Below, piece by piece: positions 8,820-30,096 of a stretch of DNA of 64,000 nucleotides (the stretch's first letter is position 1; each line of letters starts with the position of its first letter). The stretch is from Ancylobacter lacus (GTDB lineage Bacteria; Pseudomonadota; Alphaproteobacteria; Rhizobiales; Xanthobacteraceae): contig NZ_JAHBGE010000072.1 in the NCBI RefSeq assembly GCF_018390635.1, positions 124,001 through 188,000 on the forward strand, read 5' to 3'. The notes below the pieces were generated by a model. It searched no databases. It had not been told where the DNA came from and saw only the letters and a program-made list of their open reading frames with translations. Both the position numbers and the translations under genes were made by a program.

Positions 8820-8985
8820 GAGAGAGGGTCCTGACGGGGCCGCGCGAGCCGGAATGGCCGGCAGGGCCGGGACCGTCCCGACCGTGCCCATCTGCGCAGG
8901 AAAGGCTGTGGGGAGGGCGCCCGGGGCGGTCGACCCCGGGCGGAAGGTGCGGCGTGGGCGGCGGCAGGGCGCCGCCGGCCCGGCC

Positions 8986-13286: not shown

Positions 13287-13456
13287 GGCGCCTCGGGCTG
13301 TTGCCTCGGAGCCTCCGACCATGTCGGCCTGAGTTCCCGCCATCGCCTCCAGCGCCGTCGCCTCTTGCACCGCGGCAACGCTTCGACCATCATCCCCTCG
13401 ATAGCCGCCGCACAGTGTCGTGGGCGGCGCTGGCATCGCAGCCTCGCATCGGGCCT

Positions 13457-13480
13457 CACCGCCCGAGCGGGGTTTTTTTG
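13457..13480 (+). terminator. Possible intrinsic terminator before the AAA+/VWA pair
   Basis: A short CCGC/GCGG stem with a four-base loop is followed by two G and seven T. The stem is short, so the call rests mainly on the T-run and on its position between the molybdoenzyme gene and the next gene. Confidence 0.45.
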
Positions 13481-14333: not shown

Positions 14334-16631
14334 ATGGCAGCGGCCATGCCCGAGGCGGCAGCCGACACCGCCGCCGCGATGCGGCTTGAACGGCAGCTAG
14401 GCGGCCGGCCGGAGCTGGCGGCGCGCTTTGCAACGGCGCGCGGGCGGGTTCGCCGTGCGCTCGGCGCCACCGTGGAAGACGTGTGGGCGCTGCGGGTGCG
14501 GGCGCTTTATGAGGTCAATGCCGGCCCCGCCGTGCTCGCGGCGCTGTACGAGCTGGAGGCGCGCCTCCTGCCCGGCGCCGAGGCGGAAACCGTGTTCGCG
14601 CTGTGGGACAACGCCCGGGTGCTCTGTCGTCATGCCGGCGCCCGCGCGGCGTTGGCGGCGCTGGCGGCGGTCGGCAGCGGGCTTCCTCATGGCGGTACGG
14701 GAACCGGGGAGGCGGCGCGGCTGGCCGCGCTGGCGGGCCTTGCCGCGCGGGCGCCCGACGCGGTGATGCCGCTGCTGGAGGTGTTCGACGAGCTGGCGCG
14801 GACGCTGGACCCCGCCGGCCTCGCCGGCTGGATCGGCGACGGCCTCGCGCTTCATCCCACCGACCGCCGCCGGCGCGCCGCCTATTTCCGTCTGATCGAT
14901 CCGCTTGCCCGTCTGCGCCTCGCCGAACGCGCCGGCGCGGTGCGCTACGCCCCGCATGAGGAGCGGCTGCGCCGCCTCACCCGGGCGTTGTTCGGTTTCG
15001 AACCGCAGGTCCACCTCGTCGCGGAGCCCGCGTTAAGCCGCACCCGTCTGGCGGGCGGGCTGCTGCTGATGCCCGCACGTTTCGACGGGCTGGGTGGAGC
15101 GGACGCGGCGCGCTTCTTCGAGGCCGCCATGCTGCACGCGGCGGCCCACCGCGCTTTCACGCCGGCCCTGTTCGCGCCGGCCGGGATGAAGCCGGTGCAG
15201 CGCGCGCTCGTTGCCCTGCTGGAGGACGCCCGGGTGGAGCGGCTGGCGGTGGCCCGGTTTCCCGGGCTGGGCCGGTTGTGGCGGGGCTTCCACACCGTGC
15301 CGGCCTCGCCAGCGCAGACGATCCCCTCGCTGTTCGCCCGGCTCGCGCGCGGCCTTGCCGACCCGGCCTATGAGGACGGCGACGGCTGGATCGTCAAGGC
15401 GCGCGACCTGTTCGAGCGCGCATTCGCGCGGGAGCCGCAGCGGCAGGGTTTCGTTACTGAGATCGCCCGGATCCTCGGCCATGATCTCGGCCAGCTCCGC
15501 ATCCCCTTCGATGGCCGCAGCTACCGGGTGGAGCCGGCCTATCGCGACGATGGGCTCGGGCTGTTCGACCAGGATGAGGCCGACCCGTCCGCCACCGAGC
15601 GGCTGGAGCTGACGGTGGAGGCGGCCCGGCTGCGGCAGGAGGAGAGGGAGACGGCATTCCCCGACCCGCCGCCCGAGCCGCCGGAGACGACATCGGCCCG
15701 GCCCCGGCCCGCTCCTCCCGCGGACGAGCCGGGGGAGATTCTGGCGCTCTACCCCGAATGGCACCCCGCCCTGCGCGCCGACCAGCCCGACCATGTCACC
15801 GTGCGGCTCTACCCCGCCGTCACCGTCACCGCGGCGGCGCTGGAGGATCGGCTGCAGGCCTCCCGCAGTGTCGGCGCGCGGATCGGCGCGCTGGTCCGCC
15901 GTGCCCGTCTCGGCCGGCCGGACCGCCTGCGCCGACGGCTGGACGGCGAGGAGATCGACCTCGAGGCCGCGCAGGATGCGCTTCAGGCGCTGCGGGCGGG
16001 CGTCATGCCGGACCCCCGCATCCATGCGTTGAAGCGCCGGCAGGGGCGCGACGTGGCTCTGTTGCTGCTGCTGGATGTGTCCCAGTCCACGGCGGACCCG
16101 GTGCCGGGCGAGGGCGAGACGGTGCTCTCCACCGCGGCCCTGTCGGTCGCGCTGCTGGGGCAGGCGCTGGATGGGCTCGGCGATCCCTTCGCCGCCCTGG
16201 CTTTCGCCTCCAATGGGCGCAGCGATGTGCGCATCACGCCGGTCAAGAGATTCGCCGAGCGCTGGACCGAGGCGCTGCCGCGGCTGGCGGCGCTGCGGCC
16301 GGCCTATTCGACCCGGCTTGGCGCCGCCATCCGCCACGGCGCCGCCGTGCTGGCACCGCAGGCCAGTCACCGCCGGGTGCTGGTGGTGGTGACCGATGGC
16401 GAGCCGTCGGACATCGATGTCGAGGAGGAGGGCTACCTCGCCGCCGACGCGCGGCGGGCGGTGGTGCAGGCGCGGGGAGAGGGGCTCGATGTGTTCTGCG
16501 TCGCCCTGGGGCCGGCGGCGGACCGCGCCGGGGCGGCGGTGTTCGGACGGCGCAACACCTTCGGCGTCTCCCGCGTCGCCGAATTGCCCCAGCGGCTCGC
16601 CGGTCTTTATTTCCAGCTCACGGTGCGGTGA
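14334..16631 (+). CDS. cbbO: VWA-domain protein, CbbO/NorD type
   Basis: The 765-residue protein pairs with the preceding AAA+ ATPase as adaptor. The N-terminal two thirds are Ala/Arg/Leu-rich and helical; a Pro/Glu-rich linker lies around residues 440-470. The C-terminal von Willebrand A domain has the MIDAS motif DVSQS at 581-585 and the downstream TDGEPSD loop. This layout is that of CbbO and NorD. ATG at 14334 lies eight bases after the ATPase stop, and the same frame is open far upstream only as a shadow. It converges on ureD with a 16-base gap. Client protein unknown. Confidence 0.85.
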   Translation: MAAAMPEAAADTAAAMRLERQLGGRPELAARFATARGRVRRALGATVEDVWALRVRALYEVNAGPAVLAALYELEARLLPGAEAETVFALWDNARVLCRHAGARAALAALAAVGSGLPHGGTGTGEAARLAALAGLAARAPDAVMPLLEVFDELARTLDPAGLAGWIGDGLALHPTDRRRRAAYFRLIDPLARLRLAERAGAVRYAPHEERLRRLTRALFGFEPQVHLVAEPALSRTRLAGGLLLMPARFDGLGGADAARFFEAAMLHAAAHRAFTPALFAPAGMKPVQRALVALLEDARVERLAVARFPGLGRLWRGFHTVPASPAQTIPSLFARLARGLADPAYEDGDGWIVKARDLFERAFAREPQRQGFVTEIARILGHDLGQLRIPFDGRSYRVEPAYRDDGLGLFDQDEADPSATERLELTVEAARLRQEERETAFPDPPPEPPETTSARPRPAPPADEPGEILALYPEWHPALRADQPDHVTVRLYPAVTVTAAALEDRLQASRSVGARIGALVRRARLGRPDRLRRRLDGEEIDLEAAQDALQALRAGVMPDPRIHALKRRQGRDVALLLLLDVSQSTADPVPGEGETVLSTAALSVALLGQALDGLGDPFAALAFASNGRSDVRITPVKRFAERWTEALPRLAALRPAYSTRLGAAIRHGAAVLAPQASHRRVLVVVTDGEPSDIDVEEEGYLAADARRAVVQARGEGLDVFCVALGPAADRAGAAVFGRRNTFGVSRVAELPQRLAGLYFQLTVR

Positions 16632-16647: not shown

Positions 16648-17505
16648 TCATTTGCGCCGTCGCGTCGGCGCGATGCCGAAGCGCTCGGTGAAGACGTGGG
16701 CGAAAACCGCCTCCTGCGCGCGCTGATGCATCGCCCCATCGGTTGCCAGCAGCCGGAGCCCGGCCCCGCATCCACCCGGCAGCAGGCTGGCCCCGGCAAG
16801 GCTGCCGGTTGCAGTCGCGGCATCTTCCCAGCTTTGCAGGGTGGCGGAGGACACTTGTCCAAGCCAGAGCGCGCTGGCCGCCACGCGGTGGCCGTGGAGC
16901 GGCCCGTCGGCCCGCGCGAGGTCTGGCCCGGCGATGCGCTGGCGGTCGCTGAAGACCAGACATCCGTCGCGATGGATATCGGTGCGGGCGCTGTAGGCCA
17001 TGGGAGCGCCGCTCGCGCGCGCCTCCTCCTGTCCGCCCGTGCGTCGCGCAGGGTCGTGGAGCAGCAGGCCCTCCGTCAGCAGCGCCTCGGCGTCGCCTTG
17101 CAGCCGGATTTCCAGACGGGTCTCGCAGGCCGCGCCGGGAAACAGGATCTGCGGGTCCGGGGTATAGGCGAGGAAGCCGCCCGGCTCGACCTCCAGCAGC
17201 AGCCGCATCCGTGCCGGCTGGCCGCGGTCGCCATGAACGATGGTCGAGGCCTGCGTCGTCAGGTGGAGGGCGGCGCCGCGCCCGACCCGCACCCGCAGCG
17301 TCAGGTCCTCGCCGGCATAGAAGCCGCCGGAAGAGGACTGGATGTAGAGCGTCGCCACCTCCGGCCGTGCGGGGTCCAGCGCGAAGGGGCGGGTGAGGTG
17401 GAAGGGATAGGCGACATAGCGCGCCACCAGCCGGCTGGCGGCGTCGCGCCGCTCCACCGCGATGTCGAGTTCCGGGCGGCGCGGCGGCGGCAGGTGCGCG
17501 TTCAT
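16648..17505 (-). CDS. ureD: Urease accessory protein UreD
   Basis: UreD is the scaffold that binds apo-urease and, with UreF and UreG, opens the active site for nickel delivery. The 285-residue product shows the family core: [19 protein letters not shown], then [10 protein letters not shown] (the T-Q-A-S-T-like block), and [17 protein letters not shown] matching the conserved Pro-rich strand. Its ATG at 17505 overlaps the ureG stop as ATGA, so the two are translationally coupled. It is the last gene of the amide/urea operon; cbbO converges 16 bp away. Confidence 0.9.
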
Positions 17506-18158
17506 CGGCGCAGCAGCACCGCATCGGCGATCGCATCGGCGACCTGATCGATGTTGAGGCCGGCACGGCAGGCGGTGGCGACCAGCGGCCGGCCGCCGCG
17601 CACGTGGCGCGCCTCCTCCAGCATGACGTCGAGATCGACGCCGACATGGGGGGCGAGGTCGACCTTGTTCACCACCAGCAGGTCGCATTGCAGCACGCCG
17701 GGCCCGCGCTTGCGGGGAATGTCACCGCCGCCGGCAACGTCGATGACGAAGATCCACCAATCCACCAGGTCGAGCGAAAAGGTGGAGGCGAGATTGTCGC
17801 CGCCGGATTCGATGATGACGAGGTCGAGCTCGGGAAAGCGGGCGTCGAGTTCGTCCGCGGCGAGCATGTTCAGCGTGGGATCCTCGCGGATGACGGTGTG
17901 CGGGCAGGCGCCCGCCTCGACCGCCAGCACGCGCGCGGGATCGATGATGCCGCTGCGGCGAAGGCGCTCGGCGTCCTCCGCGGTGACGAGGTCGTTGGTG
18001 ACCACGGCGACCGAGACGCCGCGCGCCTGCAGCACCGGCAGCAGCGCCTCGATGAGCGCGGTCTTGCCCGAGCCGACCGGCCCGCCGATGCCGATGCGGG
18101 CGGCATTGGGAGGGGACATCGCAGGCGCTGGGGAAAGGCGGGGGGACAGGGCGTTCAT
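17502..18158 (-). CDS. ureG: Urease accessory GTPase UreG
   Basis: UreG is a SIMIBI GTPase that carries nickel and drives urease activation. The P-loop is GGPVGSGKT at residues 25-33; [14 protein letters not shown], the metal-binding EAGACPHT (C-P-H, family C-P-H motif), [12 protein letters not shown] and NKVDLA follow. At 218 residues it is close to the usual ~205 plus a short N-terminal extension; the second ATG at 18119 would give a more typical length. It begins 5 bases after ureC ends. Confidence 0.96.
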
Positions 18159-18163
18159 CGGGC

Positions 18164-19873
18164 TCACCTCAGCATGTAGCGCTGCGTCAGCGGCAGCCGG
18201 GTGGCGGGCTCGCAGGTGGCGAGCACGCCGTCGACGAAGACGTCGAAGGTGGAGGGGTTCACCTCGATCGTCGGCAGCGCGTCGTTGCGCAGCATGTCCG
18301 CCTTGGTGAGCGTGCGGGTTCCCCGCGCCGGCAGCAGCCGCTTGGTGAGGCTGAGCTGGCCGGCGAGCCCGTCCTCGATCGCGAAAGGATGCACGAAGCA
18401 GGCGGAGAGCGCGCGGGCGGCGCCGGCGAAGGCGCCCCATTGCGGGCGCAGCGCCAGAGGCTCGCAGGTCATCAGCGAGGCTGCGCTGTCGCCCATCGCG
18501 CCCCAGGCGATGAAGCCGCCCTTGATGACCAGCTCCGGCTTGACCCCGAAATAGGCCGGCCGCCAGACGACGATGTCGGCCATCTTGCCGTCCTCCAGCG
18601 AGCCGACATGGGCGTCGATGCCGAAGGTCCGCGCGGCGTTGATGGTGTATTTGGCGATGTAGCGGCGTATGCGCTCATTGTCGCCGAAGGTGGCTTCTTC
18701 GGGCAGGCGGCCGCGCTGGTCCTTCATCTTCGAGGCGAGCTGCCAGGTGCGGGTGATCACTTCATGGATGCGGCCCATGCCCTGGCTGTCCGAGCCGAGC
18801 ATGGAGATGGCGCCGAGGTCGTGCAGGATATCCTCCGCCGCGATGGTCTGCGGGCGGATCCGGCTCTCGGCGAAGGCCACGTCCTCCGGTATGGCCGGGT
18901 TGAGGTGGTGGCACACCATCGTCATGTCGAGGTGCTCGTCGAAGGTGTTCACCGTGTAGGGGTTGGTGGGGTTGGTCGAGGAGGGCAGGCAGTGCCCGAA
19001 GCCGGCGACCCGGATGATGTCCGGCGCATGGCCGCCACCGGCGCCCTCGGTGTGGTACATGTGGATGGTGCGGCCGGCGATGGCGGCCATGGTGTCTTCG
19101 AGAAAGCCGCTCTCGTTCAGCGTGTCGGTGTGGATCTGCACCTGGAAATCGAGGTCGTCCGCCACCTTCAAGCAGGTGTCGATCGCCGCCGGCATGGAGC
19201 CCCAGTCCTCGTGCAGCTTCAGCCCGAGGCAGCCGGTGCGCATCTGCTCCACCAGCGAGGCCGGGCGGTGTGAGTTGCCGCGGCCGAGGAAGCCGAAATT
19301 GATCGGCCACGCCTCGCTGGCCTGTAGCATCTTGCCGACATTGAACGGGCCGCCGCAGTCGATGCCCACCGTGATCGGGCCGAGCGAGCCGCCGATCATG
19401 GTGGTGATGCCCGCGGCGATGGCGTGCTCGCAGAGCTGGGCGCTGTCGAAATGGACGTGCACGTCGATCGCGCCGGCGGTGGCGATCATGCCTTCGCAGT
19501 CCCGCACCGTGGTGGCGGCGGAGACCTGCAGGCGCGGGTCCACGCCGTCCATGATGGCGGGATTGCCGGCCTTGCCGAGCCCGACGATGCGGCCGTCGCG
19601 GATGCCGAGGTCGCCCTTGACGATGCCCAGCACCGCGTCGATGACGAGGACGTTGCACAGGAGCATGTCGAGCGCGCCCTCGGCGCTGGTCAGCCCCGCG
19701 ACTGTGCCCATGCCGTCGCGCAGGGTTTTGCCGCCGCCGTGCAGGCATTCCTCGCCATAGACGGCGTAGTCCTTCTCCACCACCGCGACCAGCGAGGTGT
19801 CGCCGAGGCGGATGCCGTCCCCGGTGGTGGGGCCGTACATGGCGGCGTAGTCGGCGCGGCTGATGCGGGCCAT
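18164..19873 (-). CDS. ureC: Urease subunit alpha, divergent lineage
   Basis: The 569-residue catalytic subunit hydrolyses urea to ammonia and carbamate at a dinickel centre. All ligands are present: His139 and His141 (HVH), the carbamylated Lys219 in GLKLHEDWG, His248 (QIHTDTLNE), His274 ([12 protein letters not shown]) and Asp362 (SDSQ). The active-site flap CHH is at 321-323 and catalytic Arg in SRIR at 337-340. Several otherwise invariant stretches are changed, for example [10 protein letters not shown] for the usual GGGTGPA block, [12 protein letters not shown] for SDSQAMGRVGEV, and a rewritten segment after GDSAASL. It appears functional but from a separate urease lineage. Confidence 0.95.
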
Positions 19874-19893
19874 GGCGGGTTTCCTCGTCTGGT

Positions 19894-20586
19894 TCAGGCG
19901 CCGCGGAAGCCGGCGCGCCGCGCCCGCTCGAGCGCAGCGGGAGCGGCGGCGGGGTCGGTCGGGCCTTCGGTCAGGGCATTGAGACCCGTGACCTCGCCGC
20001 GTCCCCCGAAGGCCACCAGCGACACCTCGCGCGACTGGCCGGGCTCGAACCGCACCGCGGTGCCGGCGGGAATGTCGAGCCGCAGGCCGAAGGCGACGGC
20101 GCGGTCGAAATCGAGCGCTCGGTTGGCCTCGAAGAAATGGAAATGGCTGCCGACCTGCACCGGACGGTCGCCGGTGTTGACGACATGGAGCCGGGCAGTA
20201 CGGCGGCCGGCATTCAGCTCGATCTCGCCGGGCGCGGCGATGATCTCTCCCGGCACCCGGTCGGCGACGGCGTGGCCGGCGGCGGGGCGGATCGGTTCGT
20301 GCACCGTCACCAGCTTGGTGCCGTCCGGAAAGGTCGCCTCGACCTGGAGGATGGGGAGCAGCGCGTCCACTCCCTCCATCACATCGGCGGTGGTCAGCAG
20401 GCTGGCGCCGAGCTCCATCATCTCGGCGACGCTGCGCCCGTCCCGCGCGCCCTCCAGTATCTCGTCGGCGATGAGGGCGGTGGCCTCCGGCGCGTTCAGC
20501 CGACAGCCGCGGGCGCGTCGCCGCCGGGCAAGTTCCGCCGCGGAGAAGATGGTGAGACGTTCATACTCGGTCGGGGTCAGCAGCAT
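19894..20586 (-). CDS. ureAB: Fused urease gamma-beta subunit
   Basis: One 230-residue protein contains both small urease subunits. Residues 1-100 are UreA-like ([25 protein letters not shown], then SVAEMMELG and the VHEPI end); after a short linker, residues 110-210 are UreB-like with [10 protein letters not shown] and the [15 protein letters not shown] block. Fusion of gamma and beta also occurs in Helicobacter and eukaryotic ureases. The tail beyond the UreB core is Ala-rich. It lies 12 bp after ureF and 20 bp before ureC, on the same strand. Confidence 0.94.
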
Positions 20587-20598
20587 CAGCGGGTCTTC

Positions 20599-21333
20599 TC
20601 AGTTGGAGAACAGCCGCAGCGGCAGGCGGGCCTGTCGCGCGGCGGCAATCTCGGCATAGGGGGAGAAGCCGGAGGGCTCCTCGTCGGCGGCGACGGGCCG
20701 GCTTACGACGTCCGCCACCCGCCCCAGCAGCACCGGCATCAGCGCCTGGGCGCCGAGCGCGCCGACGAGGCCGAGCCGGGTCGCGGCCGTCAGCCCGCCG
20801 GCGACGAGCTGGTAGCCCGCCAGTGCCGCCGCTTCGGTTTCGTCGAGCCCGGCGCGGCGCCACAGCAGGCCCTGAATGGCCGCGAGGGTTCCCGGCGCGG
20901 CGCCGGAAGCGATGCGGCCCCGGTAGGCGCCGGCACCGGGCGTGCCAAGGCGCAAATGGGCCGCGAGAAAGGCGGCACCGTTGCGCCGCGCGCCCCGCCG
21001 CAGCGTCTGGCTGAAGGTCGAGAGATCGAGGTCGCGGTCCAGCGCGGCGACGGCGTCGAGCGCACCCTCGTCCATTGCCGTGTCGGCGCCGTCATCGTCT
21101 GCCGCCGCGCCGCCGGTGCCTGCCGCGCGGTGGCAGCGCACCAGCGTCACCCGCTCCGCCGGTCCCCAGCGGTGGCTGATCTGCTCGTCGAGAAAGGCGG
21201 CGACCGCGTCAGCGTCCGGCGTCGCGCCGCGAAGGGGGGCGAGGCCCTCCAGACCCTGCGAAAAGGCGAAGCCGCCGCCCGGAAAAGCGGAATCGCCGAA
21301 GCGCAGCGCGGTGAGCAGGCCGGCCGTCTTCAT
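20599..21333 (-). CDS. ureF: Urease accessory protein UreF
   Basis: UreF bridges UreD and UreG in the nickel-loading complex. The 244-residue product begins with LRFGDSAFPGGGFAFSQGLE, the characteristic UreF opening, and has RRGARRNGAAFLAAHLRL in the middle. The central part carries an Asp/Ala-rich insert. ATG at 21333 is three bases after the ureE stop, indicating coupling. Confidence 0.9.
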   Translation of the reverse strand: MKTAGLLTALRFGDSAFPGGGFAFSQGLEGLAPLRGATPDADAVAAFLDEQISHRWGPAERVTLVRCHRAAGTGGAAADDDGADTAMDEGALDAVAALDRDLDLSTFSQTLRRGARRNGAAFLAAHLRLGTPGAGAYRGRIASGAAPGTLAAIQGLLWRRAGLDETEAAALAGYQLVAGGLTAATRLGLVGALGAQALMPVLLGRVADVVSRPVAADEEPSGFSPYAEIAAARQARLPLRLFSN

Positions 21334-21336
21334 GGC

Positions 21337-21828
21337 CTACGCCTCGTCCGCCGCGTCGACCGGCGTCACCCGGCCTTCGGCGATCAGCTCGCGCACGCGG
21401 TCGAGATAGGCGGCGGGGGGGCCTTCGAGCGCGATCTCGATATCACCTCCGGCGAAGCGCACCTTCCAGTGCAGGTTGCCCGCGGCATAGCCGAGGGCGA
21501 GGGCATCCGGCAGCGAGGCCGGGCGCAGCCGCAGCCAGGCCTGCTCCAGCGCCCGCACCACGATGGCCCGCCCCGGCTCCAGCAGCAGCACGGCGCCGTC
21601 GAAGAGCTGTTCGCTGCGCGGCAGGGCGACGAGGCAGGCGGTGCCGCGGTCGGTGACGACGCGCAGCCGGCGCCGCGCCATGTCGCGGGTCTCGATCCGC
21701 ACGGTCTCGACCATGCCGTCATGCTCCATGTGGTGCAGGCGGTGGCCGAGATCGTGGTCGAGCCGGGAGCCGACGATGGAGGAGACCAGCACGGCGTGTT
21801 CAAGGGGCGGGTTCGGCTGCAGCGTCAT
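21337..21828 (-). CDS. ureE: Urease nickel metallochaperone UreE
   Basis: UreE delivers nickel to the urease-activation complex. The 163-residue protein has the peptide-binding N-terminal domain (RTAC-like TDRGTACLVALPRSEQLFDG) and the metal-binding C-terminal fold around YAAGNLHWKVRF, which corresponds to the GNRHWP block of other UreE proteins. It lacks the His-rich C-terminal tail of the Klebsiella protein, so nickel storage is unlikely. It follows amiE after 113 bp and is the first urease gene in the operon. Confidence 0.88.
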   Translation of the reverse strand: MTLQPNPPLEHAVLVSSIVGSRLDHDLGHRLHHMEHDGMVETVRIETRDMARRRLRVVTDRGTACLVALPRSEQLFDGAVLLLEPGRAIVVRALEQAWLRLRPASLPDALALGYAAGNLHWKVRFAGGDIEIALEGPPAAYLDRVRELIAEGRVTPVDAADEA

Positions 21829-21904
21829 GGCGCCGGGACTCCTTTGCTGGGTTCAGGCCCGTGCGCCGGCCCGGGTGCTGGGCGGGCGCGGTCCTGCGGC
21901 GGCG

Positions 21905-21924
21905 GGTGGCGGCCCGCCGCCACC
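21905..21924 (-). other. Stable hairpin between amiE and ureE
   Basis: GGTGGCGG and CCGCCACC pair perfectly around a four-base loop, 18 bases after the amiE stop. There is no T-run, so it is more likely a 3-prime stabiliser or processing site within the polycistronic message than a terminator. Confidence 0.5.
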
Positions 21925-21941
21925 TCAGGACGTTCGCGGCG

Positions 21942-22982
21942 TCAGCGATGGCCGGCGGCGACCTTGGTCGGAATGCCCTCGATCGGGCAGTCCTCGACGC
22001 CCGGCGCGCTGCGGGTCAGCGCCTCGACCATGTCGCGCGTGCCTTCCGGGTCGTCGGCCCACTGCTTGTAGAACTGGAAGGGCAGGGCGCAGGTGCCACG
22101 GACATCCTCGCCGGAATTGATCATGCCGGTGTAGCCGCGGTGCAGCAGCTTGTAGAGGTGGTTCTGCGCCTGACCCTTGGTGCGCGCCTCGCGGATGAGC
22201 GGGAGGGAGAGCTGGGCGTACTGGATGCCGTACTCCTCCTCGCCGCATTCGCCGAGGGTGCGGCCGTCGAAGCCGACGATCGCGGAACGGCCGAAATAGG
22301 TATAAACGCCATCGAAGCCGGCGGCGTTCGCCACCGCCACATAGACGTTGTTGGCCCAGGCCATCGCCTTGGCCATCGTCACCTGCTGTTCCTTGGCCGG
22401 GTACATGTAGCCCTGGCAGCGCACGATGAGCTCCGCCCCCTTCATCGCGCAGTCGCGCCAGATCTCGGGGTAATTGCCGTCGTCGCAGATGATGAGGCTG
22501 ACCTTCATCCCCTTCGGGCCTTCGGAGACATAGGTGCAGTCGCCGGGATACCAGCCCTCGATCGGCACCCAGGGCATGATCTTGCGGTATTTCTGGACGA
22601 TCTCACCCTTGTCGTTCATCAGGATGAGGGTGTTGTAGGGCGCCTTGTCGGGGTGCTGCTCGTGGCGCTCGCCGGTGAGCGAGAACACGCCCCAGACGCC
22701 GGCGGCGCGGCAGGCCTCGGCGAAGATCTCGGTTTCCTCGCCGGGAATCTGCGAGGCGGTCTCATACATTTCGGCGGCGTCGTACATGATGCCGTGGGTC
22801 GAATATTCCGGGAAGATCACGAGGTCCATGCCGGGCAGGCCCCGCTTCATGCCCACCAGCATGTCGGCGATCTTCCGGGCATTGGCGAGAACCTCGGCCC
22901 GGGTGTGCAGACGCGGCATCTTGTAGTTGACCACCGCGACGCCGACCGAGTCCGCGCTCGACGTGATGTCTCCGTGATGCAT
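21942..22982 (-). CDS. amiE: Aliphatic amidase
   Basis: AmiE hydrolyses short-chain amides such as acetamide, acrylamide and propionamide to the acid and ammonia. It is a nitrilase-superfamily enzyme. The 346-residue length equals that of the Pseudomonas enzyme, and the catalytic triad falls on the same numbers: Glu59 in FPEY, Lys134 in KYRKIMPW and Cys166 in IICDDGN. Formamidase is a related alternative, but the match favours AmiE. The ATG at 22982 has a strong GGAGGAA site. It sits between the urtE importer gene (44 bp upstream) and the urease genes. Confidence 0.95.
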
Positions 22983-23026
22983 GGGGGTTCCTCCTGCAGG
23001 GCGCTGCTGCGCGCGTTGGATAAGGT

Positions 23027-23722
23027 TCAGACGGCGATGTGCCGGTGGATGAGGTCGTCGGTGAGCTGGTCGATCGGGCCGCTGGCAACGGCGCGGCCCT
23101 TCTCCAGCATGGCGAAATGGTGGCCGGCGGACCGGGCGAAGGCGACGTTCTGCTCGACGAGGACGATGGTCAGGCCCTCCTCGGCGTTCAGCCGGACCAC
23201 GATGTTCTGGATGTCCTCGACGATGTTGGGCTGGATGCCCTCCGTCGGCTCGTCGAGCAGCAGCACGCTGGGCTCGGCGGCGAGCGCCCGGGCGATGGCG
23301 AGCTGCTGCTGCTGGCCGCCGGAGAGAACCCCGCCCGGCCGGTCGAGGTTCTCCATCAGATAGGGGAACAGGCGCGGCACCAGCGGCGGGATGCGACCGC
23401 TTCGGCCGCTCGTCGCGAAGCCCCCCATCAGGATGTTCTCGCGGATGGTGAAGTCCGGGATGATCTGGCGTCCCTGCGGGACATAGGCGATGCCGGCGCG
23501 GGCACGGCGGAAGGTCGGCTCGGCGGTGAGATCGCGCCCGCGCAGGGCCACCCGGCCGGCGATGCGGTCGGTCAGCCCCATGATGGTCTTCAGCAGCGTG
23601 GTCTTGCCGGTGCCGTTGCGGCCGACGATGGCGGTGATGGCCCGCTCCGGCACGACGAGGCTGAGCCCGTGCAGGATGTGGCTGCGGCCGTAGAAGCTGT
23701 CGACCCTGTCCAGCGTCAGCAT
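23027..23722 (-). CDS. urtE: Urea/short-amide ABC transporter ATP-binding protein UrtE
   Basis: This 231-residue ATPase is the second ATP-binding subunit of a Urt-type importer of the branched-chain amino acid (LivF-like) class. Walker A is GRNGTGKT, the Q-loop region [12 protein letters not shown] is typical of UrtE/LivF, the signature is [15 protein letters not shown] and Walker [14 protein letters not shown], whose GIQP is diagnostic for this class. Start ATG at 23722 shares its A with the urtD stop. Confidence 0.93.
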
Positions 23723-24498
23723 CAGCGGATTCCCTTGGCGCCGAGATAGGCGGCGCGCACCTCGGCATTGGCCTCGATGTCCGCCACGCTGCCCTCGGCC
23801 AGCACGCGGCCGAGATGCATGACCGTGATGCGGTTCGCGATTTCCTTGACGAAGGCCATGTCGTGCTCGACGACCACCAGCGTGTGCCGGCCCCGCATCG
23901 CCTTGATGATGGCGGCGGTCTTCATGGTTTCGGCCTCGGTCATGCCGGCCGTGGGTTCGTCGAGCAGGATGACCTTGGGGTCCTGCGCCATGAGCATGCC
24001 CAGTTCGAGCCACTGGGTTTCGCCATGGCTGAGGCTGCCGGCGTCGTCCTCCTGGCGCGTCACGAGGCCGACCTGATCGAGGATATCCTCCACCCGCCGG
24101 GTCTGCGCCGGGGAGAAGCCGAGCCGCAGATTGGCGAAGACGCCCGGGTTACGGCAGGCCGCCACCTCGAGGTTGCGGCGCACGGTGAGGTCGCGGAACA
24201 CGCTGGGGATCTGGAACTTGCGGCCCAGCCCGGCCTGGGAGATGCGGTGCTCCTCCAGTCCGGTGATCTCGCGCTCGCCGAGGAACACCCGGCCCGCGGT
24301 GGGCAGGGTCTTGCCGGAGATGAGGTCCATCAGCGTTGTCTTGCCCGCGCCGTTGGCGCCCAGCAGCACCCGCAATTCGCCCGCCTCGACGACGGTCGAC
24401 ACCGTGTCGACCGCGCGGAAGCCGGCAAAGTCGACCGTCAGTCCGTCTATGGTCAGGGCGGCGCCGGAGGCGGGGGCGCCGATCGGGTTCTGGATCAT
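23722..24498 (-). CDS. urtD: Urea/short-amide ABC transporter ATP-binding protein UrtD
   Basis: The 258-residue LivG/UrtD-type ATPase has Walker [20 protein letters not shown] after the Q-loop, signature [12 protein letters not shown] (the degenerate S-H-G form seen in UrtD) and Walker [16 protein letters not shown]. Start ATG at 24498 overlaps the urtC stop as ATGA, and the stop overlaps urtE by one base, so the cassette is tightly coupled. Confidence 0.93.
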
Positions 24499-25646
24499 GC
24501 CCGGCCCCTTTCCTCGGCGGCGGGGATCGGGGCGGCGTGCGGGCGCGCGCCCTCGCTGCGTGCCACGAGCCAGTCGCGCAGACCCGCGGCGAGGCCGGCG
24601 AGGCCGCGCGGGAGAAACAGCACCGCGAAGACGAAGGCGAGGCCGATGACGACGCGCCAGGCTTCCATCAGCGCCGGGGTCTCGGAAACCGTGGCCTCGA
24701 TCATGTTGATGAGGATCGCGCCGATGCAGGCACCGAGGATGGAGTTGCGCCCCCCGACCGCCGCCCACACCACCATGGTGATGGAGAAGGACAGGTCCAT
24801 GAAGGTCGGAGACGCGAACTCCGAGGCCATCACGTAGAGCATGCCGGCATAGCCGGAGATCGCCGCGGAGGCACAGAAGAAGAAGGTCTGGTAGCGCGGC
24901 ACGTCGAAGCCGAGGAACCGGGCGCGGCGGTCGTCGTCGCGGATCGCCTGGAGGATCAGGCCGGAGCGGGTCTCCACCAGCAGCCGGGCGCCCACCAGCA
25001 CCAGCGCGAGGCTGATGGCGACGAGGTAATAGGTCTGCGGCATGTAGGGATCGAATTCGAGCCCGAGGACGGTGAGATAGCCGAGATCGGTCAGCCCGTT
25101 GAAGCCGTTGGTGAGCGGCTGGGCCTGCACCAGCAGCAGGCGCATCAGCAGCACGACGGACAGGGTGATGATCGACACGAACACCCCGGAGATACGCTTG
25201 CGGAATACCACCATGCCAAGCCCGAAGGCGATCGCCACCGGCGCCACGATCCCCATGGCGATGCCGAACCATGGGCTCTGGAACGGAATCCAGAGGAACG
25301 AGCCCTTGGTGATGCAGCAGAGCTCGGTGGGTGCCCCCGGCTCCGCGTTCCACAGCATGAAGTCCGGGATCGGGGTGTCCGATCCCTGGGCGAGGCTGGT
25401 GGCGCTCGCCAGCTTCAACGACATCGCGATGGCGTAGGCGCCGAGGCCGAAGAACAGGCCCTGGCCGAGATTGAGGATGCCGGCATAGCCCCACGACACC
25501 GCGATGGCGGCGCCGAGCATGCCGAAGACGAGGTATTTCGACAGCCGGTTGAGCCAGAACGGATCGAACACCAGCGGCGCGGCGAGGATGAGGGCGATGA
25601 AGGCGACATAGGTCGCGGTGTTCAGCCCGGATTTGGTGAGCCGCAT
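24495..25646 (-). CDS. urtC: Urea/short-amide ABC transporter permease UrtC
   Basis: A 383-residue inner-membrane permease of the LivM/UrtC type with about ten hydrophobic segments. Typical blocks are GYAGILNLGQGLFFGLGAYA and LQAIRDDDRRARFLGFD, the cytoplasmic loop contacting the ATPase. It begins one base after the urtB stop. A periplasmic loop containing CCITKGSFLWIPFQ occurs in the family. Confidence 0.93.
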   Translation of the reverse strand: MRLTKSGLNTATYVAFIALILAAPLVFDPFWLNRLSKYLVFGMLGAAIAVSWGYAGILNLGQGLFFGLGAYAIAMSLKLASATSLAQGSDTPIPDFMLWNAEPGAPTELCCITKGSFLWIPFQSPWFGIAMGIVAPVAIAFGLGMVVFRKRISGVFVSIITLSVVLLMRLLLVQAQPLTNGFNGLTDLGYLTVLGLEFDPYMPQTYYLVAISLALVLVGARLLVETRSGLILQAIRDDDRRARFLGFDVPRYQTFFFCASAAISGYAGMLYVMASEFASPTFMDLSFSITMVVWAAVGGRNSILGACIGAILINMIEATVSETPALMEAWRVVIGLAFVFAVLFLPRGLAGLAAGLRDWLVARSEGARPHAAPIPAAEERGRA

Positions 25647-25647
25647 C

Positions 25648-26541
25648 TCAGCGTCCCTTGTAGGAGAACAGCCCCTTGGGCTTCCAGACGATGACCGCGA
25701 TGACCACCGCGAAGACCACGGCGCGGGCGATGATGTCGTTGCTCACCGCGGCGGTCAGGCCGTTGATCTGGCCGAGAATGCCCGCCGACAGGATCGACCC
25801 GACCAGGCTGCCGACGCCGCCCATCACCACGACGAGGAAGCCGTCCACCACCATCGGTGTGCCCATGTCGGGGAACACCGTCTTGAACCCGGCCATCAGC
25901 ACGCCGGCGACACCGGCGAGGCCGGAGCCATAGGCGAAGGCGAGGGCGTTGATGCGGTTGGTGTCGATGCCGCAGGCGGCGGCCATCTGCGGGTTGCGCA
26001 TGATGGCCCGCAGCTGCATGCCGATGGAGGTGCGGTACATCAGGAACCAGGTGAGAGCTGCCAGCAGCAGCGACACCAGGATGATGAAGGAGCGGTAGAC
26101 GCTGATCTCCGAGCCGGCGACCGAAAACACCCCGCCGAGCCATTCCGGCAGGCTGACATTCTGCAGCCCCGGCCCGAGCCCGGCTATGGTGATGCCGGCG
26201 AAGGCGAGGCCGAAGGACAGCCGGACCGCCTGCTGGATGAGGATGGCCACGCCCCAGGTCGCCAGCAGCGTGTCGAGCAGCCGTCCGTAGAGCCGCCGGA
26301 CCACCAGCCGTTCGATCGCAAGGCCCATGAGCGCGGTGACGAGGAAGGCGACCGGCATGGCGGCGATGAGGCCGAGCCCGAGATACAGGCTCGTCATCAC
26401 CGCCGTATAGGCGCCGAGCATCACCATCTCGCCATGGGCCATGTTGATGACCCCCATGGCGCCATAGGTGATGGCGAGGCCGAGCGCGACGAGCAGCAGC
26501 ACGGAGCCGAGGCTGAGGCCGATGAAAATGGTGTCGAGCAT
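25648..26541 (-). CDS. urtB: Urea/short-amide ABC transporter permease UrtB
   Basis: This LivH/UrtB-type permease of about 297 residues shows LGLAITYGAMGVINMAHGE near the start, the hallmark of the class, and RAIMRNPQMAAACGID, the coupling loop. It has around eight hydrophobic segments. The ATG at 26541 begins the conserved N-terminus; the frame is open to 26604 but that part is not family-like. It follows urtA by 69 bp. Confidence 0.93.
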   Translation of the reverse strand: MLDTIFIGLSLGSVLLLVALGLAITYGAMGVINMAHGEMVMLGAYTAVMTSLYLGLGLIAAMPVAFLVTALMGLAIERLVVRRLYGRLLDTLLATWGVAILIQQAVRLSFGLAFAGITIAGLGPGLQNVSLPEWLGGVFSVAGSEISVYRSFIILVSLLLAALTWFLMYRTSIGMQLRAIMRNPQMAAACGIDTNRINALAFAYGSGLAGVAGVLMAGFKTVFPDMGTPMVVDGFLVVVMGGVGSLVGSILSAGILGQINGLTAAVSNDIIARAVVFAVVIAVIVWKPKGLFSYKGR

Positions 26542-26610
26542 GCGAGCGGAACTCCGCGGCGGCGACAGGGGAGAGGGCGGCCGGCGCGTCGGGCCGGCCG
26601 CCATGGCGGC

Positions 26611-27867
26611 TCAGCCCTTGAGCTTGGCGGCGTCGAGACCGGCGGGGGTGCAGAACAGGTTCTGCTGGGTCTCGCCATAGGCCACATAAGGCAGCGGGAA
26701 GACCGGCTCGGGATAGGCGTCGACGATCTTGCCCTGGCCGTCGGCCTGCCACTGGGCGATGCGCGGGGTGAGCGCGGTGTGCAGGTTTTCCTTCTCCACC
26801 GTCACCTTGCCGCCGGGCGCGGCATAGCTCTGCCCGCCGATGGCGCCGAGCACGGCCGCCGCCGAGGTGTCCTTGGCGGCCTCGACCGCCTGCTTCCACA
26901 GGTAGACCTGGAAGTAGGAGGATTCGAGCGCGTGATGGGTCACGGCCTTGGGATCGTTGACGAACTTGCGGTAGCGCTCGACGAAGGCAAGGTTCGCCGG
27001 GGTGTCGATCGCCTGGAAATAGGGGAAGGAGGTGTAGCTCCCGACGGCATATTCCGGCCCCATCGCCGCGATCTCGATTTCCGAGGTCACGGTGGCGCAG
27101 ATCGGCAGCTTGTCGTGGCTGAGGCCCTGGTTCTTGAACTCGCGGTAGAAGGCGATGACGCTGTCACCGACGACATTGGACAGCACGACATCGCAGCCCG
27201 AGCTCTTGATCTTGTTGACCATCGAGCCCCATTCCGAATGGCCGAGCTCCAGATATTCGTCAGCGACCCATTCCCCGCCGTTCTTCTCGATGAGGATCTT
27301 GGAGACCTTGGCCATCTCGCGGGGATAGATGTAGTTCGAGCCGACGATGAAGAATTTCTTCTTGCCGAGCGTCTTGATGATCCAGGGAATGAAGTTGGAA
27401 AGCTGCTGGTTCGGCACCGCCCCGGTGTAGACCACGTTCTTCGAGCACTCGAAGCCTTCGTAATAGGTGGGGTAGAACAGCGCGGCCTTGCGCTTCTCGA
27501 ACACCGGCAGCACCGCCTTGCGGCTCGCCGAGGTGTAGCAGGCGAAGACGGTGGGGAGGCGGTCCTGGATGACCAGCTTCGAGGCCTTCTCGTTGAAGGT
27601 CTTGGGGTCGGACGCGCCGTCCTCGATCACCGCTTCGACCTGCTTGCCGAGCACGCCGCCCGAGGCGTTGATCTCGGCGATGGCCATGCGGGTGGCGTCG
27701 GTCAGGGAGCGCTCGACGATCGAGAGCCCGCCGGTCTGCGAGAACAGCACGCCGACCTTGATGCTGTCGGCGGCGGCGGCGGCGCGGCTGAAGACGGTGG
27801 GAGCGGCGATGGCTCCCGTCGCGATGGCCGCGGAGGCCGTGAGAAAATGACGACGGTTGATCGACAT
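26611..27867 (-). CDS. urtA: Tat-exported urea/short-amide binding protein, UrtA type
   Basis: The 418-residue periplasmic binding protein (Peripla_BP_5/UrtA family) starts with a Tat signal, NRRHFLTASAAIATGAIAAP. The mature protein opens IKVGVLFSQTGGLSIVERS and contains GSNYIYPREM, shared with its cytosolic relative AmiC encoded upstream. It captures urea or short amides for UrtBC-DE. The ATG at 27867 has GAGGAAA upstream. It is the first gene after the regulatory leader. Confidence 0.93.
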   Translation of the reverse strand: MSINRRHFLTASAAIATGAIAAPTVFSRAAAAADSIKVGVLFSQTGGLSIVERSLTDATRMAIAEINASGGVLGKQVEAVIEDGASDPKTFNEKASKLVIQDRLPTVFACYTSASRKAVLPVFEKRKAALFYPTYYEGFECSKNVVYTGAVPNQQLSNFIPWIIKTLGKKKFFIVGSNYIYPREMAKVSKILIEKNGGEWVADEYLELGHSEWGSMVNKIKSSGCDVVLSNVVGDSVIAFYREFKNQGLSHDKLPICATVTSEIEIAAMGPEYAVGSYTSFPYFQAIDTPANLAFVERYRKFVNDPKAVTHHALESSYFQVYLWKQAVEAAKDTSAAAVLGAIGGQSYAAPGGKVTVEKENLHTALTPRIAQWQADGQGKIVDAYPEPVFPLPYVAYGETQQNLFCTPAGLDAAKLKG

Positions 27868-28003
27868 GGGTTTCCTCGGGGGACCGGAAGGGAGACGGCG
27901 GGACGCGCAGCCGGAACCGCGCGCCGGGGAGGGCGCGTCGGGAAATCGCGGCGCGGCGACCGCGCTGGTTGTGGCGTGTCGGGTCGACCACCCTGTCGAG
28001 CCC

Positions 28004-28051
28004 GGAAAAACAAAAAGCCCGGGACGCCCCCTCGGAGGGGCGGCTCGGGCT
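28004..28051 (-). terminator. Strong intrinsic terminator in the urtA leader
   Basis: On the minus strand, AGCCCG and CGGGCT close a long stem whose inner arm is GCCCC/GGGGC with a loop of about six bases, followed by two T-runs separated by one G. It lies between amiR and urtA, about 137 bases before the urtA start and well inside the operon, so it must be read through. This fits a site controlled by the ANTAR antiterminator AmiR, by analogy with the Pseudomonas amiE leader; the control itself is inferred. Confidence 0.85.
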
Positions 28052-28133
28052 ACCTAGCCAATGCGGTATGACAGCACTGTCAAAACCGCGGTGCCGAATG
28101 TTTCGGCAGGTTCAAAACTGAACGCGATTTGAG
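28052..28133 (-). promoter_or_regulatory. Leader with stacked hairpins preceding the urtA terminator
   Basis: Three hairpins follow one another on the minus strand: GTTCA/TGAAC at 28110-28123, TGCCGA/TCGGCA at 28092-28108, and a longer GCGGT...ACCGC element at 28063-28089 whose inner stem is TGACA/TGTCA. They end just before the terminator. ANTAR proteins bind paired hairpins next to terminators, but I could not match the known A1/G4 hexaloop consensus. A TTGACA (28078-28083) with TGGCTA 17 bases on could alternatively be a promoter. Confidence 0.5.
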
Positions 28134-28742
28134 CTAACCACCGATTTTTGGCGAATGCAAGAGCTCGTTTGCGTTGATGATCGAGGTGGCGATCTCGTCC
28201 ATCGAGACCCGCTTCGACATGGCCTGCTGGCGGATCGTCTCATAGGCGGCCTCCTCGCCGATGCCGTGGATCGCCATCAGGATCGCCTTGGCCTTCTGGA
28301 TGCGCTGGAGGCTGGAAACCCGGCGTTCCAGCTTGTTCAGCCGCTTCTGCTGCTCCTGCTTTTCCTGCCACAGGCCGCGCGCCAGCAGCAGGTTGGTCAG
28401 GACGCCGAAGGGTCGGATGGGGCGATCCATCGCGGCAAGCACGCCGATGTCGAACAGCACTTCCAGGGTGCGCGGGTTCTCGTAGTCGACAATGGCGATG
28501 ATGGCCGGCGGAATGCCCTCGACGCCGCGGGCGAGGCGGATGATGTCGGTGCGGTATTCGTGGTCGATCGACAGGAACATGACCGCCACCTTGGCGGGCA
28601 CCTCGCGTGGAATCGGCCAGGCCGCCTCGGCGTGGCAACCGATACGGCGCAGGTGCTCGATCAAGGTGCGGCCGTCGGCGTCGGGCGGGTGGACGACGAG
28701 AACCGGCAAGCCCTTGAGGCTTTTCAGCGGTGGCATCGCCAT
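28134..28742 (-). CDS. amiR: ANTAR-domain transcription antiterminator AmiR
   Basis: The 202-residue regulator has a pseudo-receiver N-terminal half (PVLVVHPPDADG through about residue 115), a coiled linker (QEKQEQQKRLNKLERRV) and a C-terminal ANTAR RNA-binding domain (about 137-195: KAKAILMAIHGIGEEAAYETIR). In Pseudomonas AmiR is held by AmiC; amide releases it and it prevents termination in the amidase leader. Here amiR follows amiC by four bases and precedes the leader with a terminator, so the same mechanism is likely. A second in-frame ATG is at 28736. Confidence 0.92.
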   Translation of the reverse strand: MAMPPLKSLKGLPVLVVHPPDADGRTLIEHLRRIGCHAEAAWPIPREVPAKVAVMFLSIDHEYRTDIIRLARGVEGIPPAIIAIVDYENPRTLEVLFDIGVLAAMDRPIRPFGVLTNLLLARGLWQEKQEQQKRLNKLERRVSSLQRIQKAKAILMAIHGIGEEAAYETIRQQAMSKRVSMDEIATSIINANELLHSPKIGG

Positions 28743-28746
28743 GGCG

Positions 28747-29934
28747 TCAATCGATCTTCGCGGCTTGGGGGGCGAGGGACCAGTCGTCCAGCGCCGACGA
28801 CACGAAATAGGGGTCCGGCTTCATCCGCCGGTGCGGGTCCCACACGATCTCGAAGCGCTTGGCGGCGTCGAGCCGTGCGACCCGTGGCCACAGGAAGGTG
28901 TGGTTGTTGGTCGGATCGATGGCGACCATGCCCTGCGGGGCGTCGAACTCCACCCGGGCCAATGCCTCCACGATGCGGGCGCGGTCGAGGCTGCGGGCCT
29001 GGGCGACGGCGGCGGCCACCAGATGAACCTGGAAATACGCGGCCTCGGCTGCGGCCGTCACGGGAATGTCCGGGCCGAAAAGCCGGCGATAGGCGGCGAG
29101 GAAGGCCCGGTTGCGCGCCGTCGCCAGCGTCTCGAAATAGGGCGCGGCGGTGAAGTGGCCTTCGGCCGCCGCGGCCGACATCTCCGCCACCTCCGCCTCA
29201 TTGGTGGTGAGGCTGGCGATGGGGGTGCGGGCGGGATCGAAGCCGGCCCGCCGATAGGCCTCGTAGAACATGGCCGTGCCGGAGCCGACCACCGTGGAGA
29301 ACACAGCGTCCGGTGCGAGCCGGCGGATCTGGTTCAGGGCCCGGTCGAAATCGGCGGGCGAGGGATCGAGCGGAACATAGATCTCGTCGAGGATCTTGCC
29401 GCGCGCCTCGATCACGAGGTCAGAAAATATGCGGTTGGATTCATAGGGGAAGATGTAGTTCGATCCGATCAGCAGGATGCGCGGGCCGTGATTTTCCAGA
29501 ATATAGCGTGCGAGTGGCTGCGAGTTCTGATTCGGCGTGGCACCGGTATAGATGCAGTTCGGTGAATATTCGAAGCCTTCGTAGAGCGTGGGATAGACCA
29601 GCAGAGCGTTGCGGGATTCGATCACCGGCAGCACCGCCTTGCGGGTGCTCGACATGTAGCAGCCGAAGATGAGGCGCACGCCCTGCTCGTCGAGCAGGCG
29701 GATCGACTCGGCGCGGAACAGCTTGGGATTGGCCTGGCAATCCTCGCCGACCTCCACCAGCTCGCGCCCGGCGACGCCGCCGGCGGCGTTGATCTCGCGG
29801 ATCGCGAGGCGTGTCGCCAGCAGTTGCGTGCGCTCCACGGAGGCGGTGACGCCGGTCTGCGAGAACAGGACGCCGATCGGCAGGGGGCTATCGCTCCAGA
29901 CGGAGCCTTCGTCGGACATGGCAGACGCATCCAT
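28747..29934 (-). CDS. amiC: Amide sensor and negative regulator AmiC
   Basis: The 395-residue protein is a binding-protein-like sensor (Peripla_BP fold: PIGVLFSQTGVTASVERT, GATPNQNSQPLARY, GSNYIFPYESNR) without a signal peptide, so it stays in the cytosol. This is the AmiC pattern: it binds amide and controls AmiR. It closely resembles the exported UrtA product encoded in the same cluster, suggesting duplication of an ancestral amide/urea binder. I chose ATG at 29934 with GGGAG nine bases upstream; the longer open frame to 30051 has no binding-protein character. The ribosome site lies inside a terminator-like hairpin. Confidence 0.9.
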   Translation of the reverse strand: MDASAMSDEGSVWSDSPLPIGVLFSQTGVTASVERTQLLATRLAIREINAAGGVAGRELVEVGEDCQANPKLFRAESIRLLDEQGVRLIFGCYMSSTRKAVLPVIESRNALLVYPTLYEGFEYSPNCIYTGATPNQNSQPLARYILENHGPRILLIGSNYIFPYESNRIFSDLVIEARGKILDEIYVPLDPSPADFDRALNQIRRLAPDAVFSTVVGSGTAMFYEAYRRAGFDPARTPIASLTTNEAEVAEMSAAAAEGHFTAAPYFETLATARNRAFLAAYRRLFGPDIPVTAAAEAAYFQVHLVAAAVAQARSLDRARIVEALARVEFDAPQGMVAIDPTNNHTFLWPRVARLDAAKRFEIVWDPHRRMKPDPYFVSSALDDWSLAPQAAKID

Positions 29935-29935
29935 G

Positions 29936-29973
29936 CAAAAAAGCTCCCGCTGCGTTCCCGCAGGCGAGAGCTT
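29936..29973 (-). terminator. Terminator-like hairpin overlapping the amiC ribosome binding site
   Basis: On the minus strand AAGCTCTCG (one bulged base) CTGCG pairs with CGCAG CGGGAGCTT around a GGAA loop, and the stem runs into six T. It ends two bases before the amiC ATG. The GGGAG that should serve as the Shine-Dalgarno is in the 3-prime arm. It is therefore both an intrinsic terminator and a ribosome-site lock; release by AmiR or by translation upstream would be autoregulation. This role is inferred. Confidence 0.8.
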
Positions 29974-30096
29974 CCACGCTCGTGATCGCCGCCATCGACA
30001 CTGACGCCGGCACCTTCGAATAAGGCTAACCTGTGGCCAACACCATATCAAGCCGGTGCCAGGCGTGGTTGCGACGGCAGATGGTTGCCGCCCCGC

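Follow-up and report, generated by a model that had tools for sequence, protein, structure and literature searches.

The amiC-ureD locus and its leader

The DNA analysed here, hereafter the window, is a stretch of 64,000 nucleotides (nt) from the genome of Ancylobacter lacus (G000:C71:124001-188000; genome of 4.63 Mb in 90 contigs). On its minus strand, from 29934 down to 16648, lies the series amiC-amiR-leader-urtABCDE-amiE-ureEF(AB)CGD, on which a norQ-norD pair converges from the plus strand. We consider it quite probable that this locus is an amide regulon controlled by AmiC/AmiR that has drawn in a urease and the NorQ/NorD pair. An earlier sequence-only reading of this DNA had the families, strand, order and outer coordinates right, as profile searches and a gene inventory bore out. 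Its count of sixteen genes or leaders comes down to 14 genes and one leader, because ureA and ureB are joined in a single fusion gene (NF009671), and the inventory of 16.6-30.1 kb revealed no further gene within the unit. Nor are the starts coupled throughout, as it had claimed: only three overlaps exist (urtC/D, 4 nt; urtD/E, 1 nt; ureG/D, 4 nt), most remaining gaps measure 1-20 nt, and larger ones separate urtE from amiE (44 nt), amiE from ureE (113 nt) and amiR from urtA (266 nt). It also passed over the norQ-norD pair and two additional AmiR-type leaders (13399-13478, plus strand; 29938-30017, minus strand), and with them, probably, further members of the regulon, namely norQ-norD and, on weaker evidence, amiC-amiR itself.

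The control elements at the head of the unit are:

28747-29934, minus strand: amiC, ligand-binding negative regulator (closest PDB match Pseudomonas aeruginosa AmiC, 1pea/1qo0, 355.7 bits; PF13433, 435 bits)
28134-28742, minus strand: amiR, ANTAR antiterminator (PF21332 AmiR_N, 118.4 bits; PF03861 ANTAR, 55.4 bits; PDB 1qo0_D AmiR, 83.8 bits)
27868-28133, minus strand: intergenic leader region between amiR and urtA, 266 nt
28012-28093, minus strand: main AmiR-type leader (P1 28067-28085, hexaloop AGUGCU; P2 28048-28059, hexaloop UAGGUA; terminator 28011-28050)

Both halves of AmiR, the N-terminal pseudo-receiver (PF21332) and the ANTAR domain (PF03861), score above their cut-offs. According to the accessible text of PMC3369931, the sites bound by ANTAR proteins such as EutV are dual hairpins with hexanucleotide loops, conserved at positions 1 and 4, the second of which overlaps a terminator; they are mostly linked to nitrogen genes, urea transporters included. 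The main leader has this anatomy, with two hexaloop hairpins and an intrinsic terminator that takes up the 3' arm (GCC) of P2, which reads GGC-UAGGUA-GCC and has G at loop position 4 and U at position 1. Of 115 leaders, 98 (73 distinct) conform to the pattern of P2 plus terminator, and loop base 4 is G in 72 of the 73, the single exception being a mis-hit in locus L051. Among the 17 leaders that fail the pattern, 9 have a 7-nt loop and three (L047, L120, L121) show nothing. P1 and the terminator covary: over 30 distinct sequences the cells with both sides changed numbered 54 and 61, against shuffled means of 27.0 and 21.2, with none of 500 shuffles as high and slid controls lower (an earlier first test used 61 sequences). 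The P2 stem is invariant among the aligned leaders, a count that is partly circular because the sequences were selected by the pattern GGC-N6-GCC.

A covariance model built on P1 and the terminator (R1) recovers the leader that follows amiR in two searched sets of loci, with 38 of 40 and 49 of 51 found, counts that include training rows. A strict leader pattern, which misses many real leaders, that of L139 included, found 27 sites in 25 of 296 genomes of the family, 26 beside amiR and one upstream of norQ, against 1 for a control pattern. In relatives the leader stands before the first part of the unit, be it urt, amiE or ure; in L038 and L040 it leads directly into ureE. In L139 the urease operon lies about 56 kb from amiR, and an R1 leader (57.7 bits) is nevertheless found about 75 nt before ureE. 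By its anatomy the leader is an AmiR/ANTAR-type attenuator, at which this AmiR would act by antitermination. Since its anatomy, its position before the first gene and its presence on the unlinked urease of L139 all fit one inducible unit, that part of the earlier proposal of a single amide-triggered unit is supported by these comparisons, and the genes from urtA to ureD may be co-transcribed; for the amide as trigger, the evidence is the protein family and the pocket residues discussed below.

Two details of the leaders deserve mention in their own right. A 14-nt palindrome lies directly after amiR (28110-28123, minus strand); L018 and L019 have it in their leaders too, and L021 has it with one base altered. 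In the P1 stem (A2 columns 14/23), the pair beside the loop-closing C-G is unpaired in 12 of 30 sequences, which might mean that a C-U or C-C step is tolerated there or even favoured.

Further leaders and the NorQ/NorD pair

In an unfiltered R1 scan of the window three sites stand out, the main leader (64.9 bits, a training site) and two sites outside the training set, at 31.6 and 23.2 bits; the complement of the main site reaches 15.4 bits and the next-best other site 11.4 bits. The two sites and the genes at the first of them are:

13399-13478, plus strand: AmiR-type leader upstream of norQ (R1 31.6 bits, E 2.1e-07; P1 13404-13428, AGUGUC; P2 13432-13443, AUCGCA; terminator 13442-13479)
29938-30017, minus strand: AmiR-type leader upstream of amiC (R1 23.2 bits, E 7e-05; P1 29988-30011; P2 29968-29981; terminator 29937-29972)
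13528-14325, plus strand: norQ-like AAA+ gene of MoxR/CbbQ type (PF07728, 122.9 bits; PF08406 CbbQ_C, 102.5 bits)
about 14334-16631, start codon unsettled, plus strand: norD-like gene for a von Willebrand factor A (vWA) protein, convergent with ureD (PF00092, 29.9 bits, run on 14364-16631)

The first leader ends about 50 nt before norQ, the second at the start of amiC, and both have A1/G4 in P1 and G4 in P2. Among 91 related loci searched at E<=0.05, R1 also matches upstream of norQ in L020 (41.9 bits) and L111 (19.7 bits). When dual hairpins with A1/G4 loops were counted with a hand-made pattern, 13 of 27 distinct norQ upstream regions had them (shuffled mean 0.7, maximum 3), as did 28 of 94 amiR leaders (shuffle maximum 9), compared with 5/72, 4/63, 1/39 and 1/42 at four control gene starts. 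Judged by these scores and counts, the norQ leader is well supported as an AmiR-type site and the amiC leader less so. The leaders before norQ, amiC and the unlinked urease make it likely that the regulon is larger than had been thought, with the sensor and antiterminator, importer, amidase, urease and NorQ/NorD as its members.

The products of the pair have the make-up of a CbbQ/NorQ-type AAA+ protein (AAA_5 and CbbQ_C domains) with a vWA partner, and norD ends 16 nt from ureD. Among the family loci tallied for gene content, norD and/or norQ occur in 26 of 29 that bear amiE and in none of the 4 that lack it; the three without them are L045, L018 and L033, the last on a contig that ends. In L079, amiE, norQ and norD form a separate convergent group behind amiC-amiR-ure. 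The pair thus travels with the amidase and not with the urease. A plasmid-borne ami operon with CbbQ/NorD genes is described in the accessible text of PMC13209695, where these genes are suggested to help assemble or activate the amidase. The AmiR-type leader before norQ adds a regulatory tie between the pair and the amidase, and NorQ/NorD probably aid the folding, assembly or activation of AmiE.

Importer, amidase and urease

The structural genes of the unit are:

26611-27867, minus strand: urtA-like, substrate-binding protein, probably of amide type (TIGR03407, 404.2 bits, cut-off of 492.75 missed; AmiC-like residues at 83 and 106)
25648-26604, minus strand: urtB, permease (TIGR03409, 338.9 bits, cut-off 250.3)
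24495-25646, minus strand: urtC, permease (TIGR03408, 358.3 bits, cut-off 296.2)
23722-24498, minus strand: urtD, ATPase (TIGR03411, 320.8 bits, cut-off 304.1)
23027-23722, minus strand: urtE, ATPase (TIGR03410, 293 bits, cut-off 285.8)
21942-22982, minus strand: amiE, aliphatic amidase (NF009802, 693 bits, cut-off 427; solved amidase 2plq, 619.9 bits)
21905-21924, minus strand: GC-rich hairpin after amiE, without a T-run, from folding of the 113-nt amiE-ureE gap
21337-21828, minus strand: ureE (NF009752, 175.2 bits, cut-off 162)
20599-21333, minus strand: ureF (PF01730, 69.5 bits)
19894-20586, minus strand: ureAB, fused gamma/beta subunit (NF009671, 348.9 bits, cut-off 243; PF00547 beside PF00699)
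18164-19873, minus strand: ureC, alpha subunit (TIGR01792, 820.1 bits; end-to-end alignment with solved ureases)
17502-18158, minus strand: ureG (TIGR00101, 241.2 bits, cut-off 204.2)
16648-17505, minus strand: ureD (PF01774, 125.3 bits)

All four of UrtB-E pass their equivalog cut-offs, whereas UrtA falls short of that for the canonical urea-binding protein. AmiE is the sole close copy in the genome, the runner-up sharing 29% identity. The urease set is complete, with gamma, beta and alpha subunits and UreDEFG, and ureolytic activity is predicted. The genome has two further ureC genes, one adjoining a canonical urtABCDE on contig C61 and one at a contig end on C35.

A UreE search of the family genomes gave 26 matches in 25 of the 296, half of which (13) adjoin amiR. 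In the other 13 loci UreC identity is 82-86% in 8 and only 51-52% in 5. Six of those 8 carry urtABCDE and a dimethylformamidase-like gene (Pfam PF20254 for L138 and L141; tblastn, 76-98%, for L140, L142, L143 and L146); the remaining two are L139, with its unlinked leader, and L144, which shows neither the dimethylformamidase/urt tie nor a tie to amiR. A dimethylformamidase-like gene also follows ure and urt in L038 and L040. In a UreC tree of 53 rows the 46 of this kind form one clade (100/98), on which linkage to amiC-amiR requires 5 changes against 13.2 when shuffled, linkage being over-represented there because the rows were collected through AmiR and UreE searches. Leader, linkage and tree together suggest a urease clade at home in amide operons.

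Some neighbours in these clusters were seen in passing. Between the dimethylformamidase-like gene and ureE, L141 encodes a 342-amino-acid protein without a Pfam match (7829-8857) that is kept in all five of the other such loci. In some loci of Bradyrhizobium and Methylopila an alpha/beta-hydrolase gene separates amiE from ureE (L109 16864-17883, L115 16861-17880, L076 11931-13070; Pfam on L115 only). The ureE match of one relative (G227:C3:30963-31418) contains an internal TGA. In the window itself, an open reading frame of 526 amino acids without a Pfam or NCBIfam match lies upstream of amiC (30097-31677, minus strand). An Rfam scan of the window returned five matches, none within the amiC-ureD locus; one is a terC RNA (RF03067, 11505-11567, 54.7 bits) that precedes an open reading frame at 11731-12459, presumably TerC-like from its translation.

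Recurrence in relatives

AmiR (E<=1e-15) is present in 47 of the 296 family genomes, the closest named relatives by AmiR being Ancylobacter (87, 84 and 81% identity); class-wide, at E<=1e-30, it is rare (4 of 385 genomes, our own included). The best 40 of 66 AmiR matches outside the own genome were retrieved and gene content was tallied for the best 33 (L018-L050). Behind amiC-amiR these carry amiE (20 loci), urt-amiE-ure (7), amiE-ure (2), ure-urt (2), urt-ure (1) or none of them (1). In a second set of 80 named loci, from Bradyrhizobium, Rhodopseudomonas, Mesorhizobium, Aminobacter, Labrys, Methylopila and others and partly from the same genomes, the tally is urt 20, urt-amiE-ure 18, amiE 14, urt-ure 13, amiE-ure 7, urt-amiE 4, ure 3 and none 1; several of these contigs end early, and L104, scored as urt-amiE-ure, is a decayed cluster of fragments only. 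A urease thus stands behind amiC-amiR in 12 of 33 and 41 of 80 loci of these overlapping sets from the Hyphomicrobiales, and upstream of amiC in L072 and L116. Because L038 retains the start of amiE, and L026 that of urtA, between the leader and the next gene, members have been lost from inside the unit. The recurrence of the order across genera makes it more than a chance arrangement. It had been called fairly a departure from the textbook, though it is no one-off.

Inducer and alternative explanations

In P. aeruginosa numbering, the window AmiC has Tyr83, Thr106 and Tyr150, an AmiC-type pocket at positions that we take to be ligand-pocket residues (position 106 differs between the solved structures 1pea and 1qnl). 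The window UrtA shares all three, unlike the canonical UrtA on C61, which has Trp83 and Val106. These residues favour amides as ligands of both sensor and importer, and an amide is the likely inducer. That AmiC senses urea, or both, in what would be a urea regulon that also burns amides, seems unlikely to us. It would account for the 13 of 80 named loci that have urt and ure without amiE, and for residue 255 of AmiC, which is Pro in most loci and Ser/Thr, with exceptions, in most amiE-less and other urease-linked clusters (L038, L040, L065, L066, L074-L078, L080, L081, L087, L088, L090, L092, L098, L103, L105, L106 and L126, all urease-linked, and L062, where the contig ends). The residue-255 pattern, however, is nested in the phylogeny, extends to L051, which has no urease, and was spotted post hoc, and AmiC of the amiE-less urease clusters retains Tyr83/Thr106, none having the Trp83/Val106 of the C61 UrtA. 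A urea-directed ligand switch in the AmiC of these clusters was looked for and left no sign at positions 83 and 106, position 255 being no more than a lead. Elsewhere Tyr83 is replaced by His, in L021, L048, L120 and Rhizobium-type loci. Contig C33 of the same genome carries a second, more distant amiC-amiR, accompanied by a nitrilase-like gene and genes resembling urt.

Ureases are commonly subject to general nitrogen control, and the 113-nt gap with its strong hairpin would suit a urease merely parked behind amiE, with a promoter of its own or under general nitrogen regulation. We regard this as quite improbable: an AmiR-type leader stands directly before ureE in L038 and L040 and before the unlinked ureE of L139, and a run of five T is found in none of 18 amiE-ureE gaps, most of which fold into GC-rich hairpins. 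As these hairpins have no T-run, a terminator in the gap is disfavoured and unequal expression allowed. A one-mismatch sigma-54 pattern matched the window 3 times against 4.47 expected, never near amiC, and neither amiC nor ureE has a match above chance; no sigma-70-like match was found either. It is likewise distinctly improbable that the sites before norQ and amiC are plain terminators belonging to the genes ahead of them. Both are intergenic and end in a T-run, as such terminators would, but both also have the A1/G4 hexaloop of P1, a second hexaloop with G4, the spacing of the main leader and scores far above the rest of the window, and the excess of dual hairpins before norQ over shuffles and control gene starts speaks against it.

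Several observations weigh against the AmiR-controlled regulon as we propose it. Loop position 1 of P2 is not conserved, other bases often standing there in place of A. The strong amiE-ureE hairpin may uncouple amidase and urease expression. A generic scan for promoters and terminators found no sigma-70-like promoter and left the leader terminators unflagged (3 terminator-like sites against 4.2 expected). Upstream of amiC, R1 matched at E<=0.05 in as few as 6 of 91 loci (L018, L020, L021, L062, L064, L069), and the dual-hairpin count there, 7 of 91, shows no excess over shuffles (maximum 8); at the same threshold R1 also matched elsewhere, at L104 138-198 and L074 5700-5774. The window norQ site itself fails the stricter dual-hairpin count, and L018 has amiE with no norD or norQ within reach. 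A whole-genome R1 search found a single site, a result uninformative on absence because 150 of 5186 candidates were scored and the two known window sites were missed.

Proposed mechanism and comparison with known systems

The mechanism that we envisage for the amide regulon follows from its components. AmiC would keep AmiR inactive until a short amide bound by AmiC releases it. AmiR dimers would then bind P1 and P2 in the nascent leader, so that P2 retains the arm needed to build the terminator and RNA polymerase continues. Three leaders would respond, those before urtABCDE-amiE-ureEF(AB)CGD and norQ-norD and probably that before amiC-amiR, the last giving positive feedback. The importer would take up amides, perhaps urea too, AmiE and urease would yield ammonia, and NorQ/NorD would serve AmiE as suggested above. 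One might speculate, as a possible if doubtful extension, that the locus is dedicated to a route from amide through urea to ammonia, with a urease clade of its own. AmiE, or the dimethylformamidase-like enzyme in sister clusters, would cleave an imported amide to urea or a substituted urea, and the linked urease would complete the breakdown; the AmiC/AmiR switch would act through several leaders and would also govern NorQ/NorD, as maturation machinery specific to the amidase.

If the regulon is as proposed, this urease would be among the few under RNA-level antitermination, set by an amide sensor and not by urea or general nitrogen status, which would explain why a third urease is kept in a genome with three ureC genes. 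There would also be a regulatory reason to consider NorQ/NorD-type AAA+/vWA proteins as partners of aliphatic amidases, a link noted without mechanism in the accessible text of PMC13209695. Because the window holds three leaders and L139 an unlinked urease, the AmiR regulon can be tested directly. Neither the mechanism nor the families are new; in the open-access literature searched we found no paper on AmiC/AmiR with a urease, nor on a urease and NorQ/NorD in an AmiR regulon, which is weak evidence of novelty as subscription papers lay mostly outside the search.

Among the closest arrangements, in the accessible text of PMC13209695, are a plasmid operon of Klebsiella sp. KOS9 (amiC, amiR, ABC importer, amiE) and a plasmid of P. 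veronii Yu15 (amiE, amiC and amiR together with a norD-like gene and one for a CbbQ/NorQ-type ATPase); unlike the window locus, neither has a urease or a leader analysis as described there. In Bradyrhizobium japonicum (blr0968-blr0973), acetamidase/formamidase and amiE adjoin a second urt-type importer, which was interpreted with SIMBAL as importing amides; the accessible text of PMC3098086 describes no AmiC/AmiR control or urease for it. Compared with the ANTAR/EutV sites of PMC3369931, in whose main text the word urease is absent, position 1 of P2 is unconserved here.

The canonical urtABCDE-ure cluster on C61 shares the importer and urease families, and differs in the pocket of its UrtA, in a UreC only about 57% identical and in having no AmiC/AmiR match in the 18 kb around it. 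The amidase operon of P. aeruginosa has the order amiE-B-C-R-S, with amiE first and amiB and amiS present. In the window the order is different, amiC-amiR coming first and an ABC importer and urease after them, with NorQ/NorD opposite and no further gene in 16.6-30.1 kb. What the two hold in common is the switch and its enzyme: no solved structures are closer than those of the P. aeruginosa AmiC (1pea) and AmiR (1qo0), AmiE is of the same family, and both loci have a leader of antitermination type.

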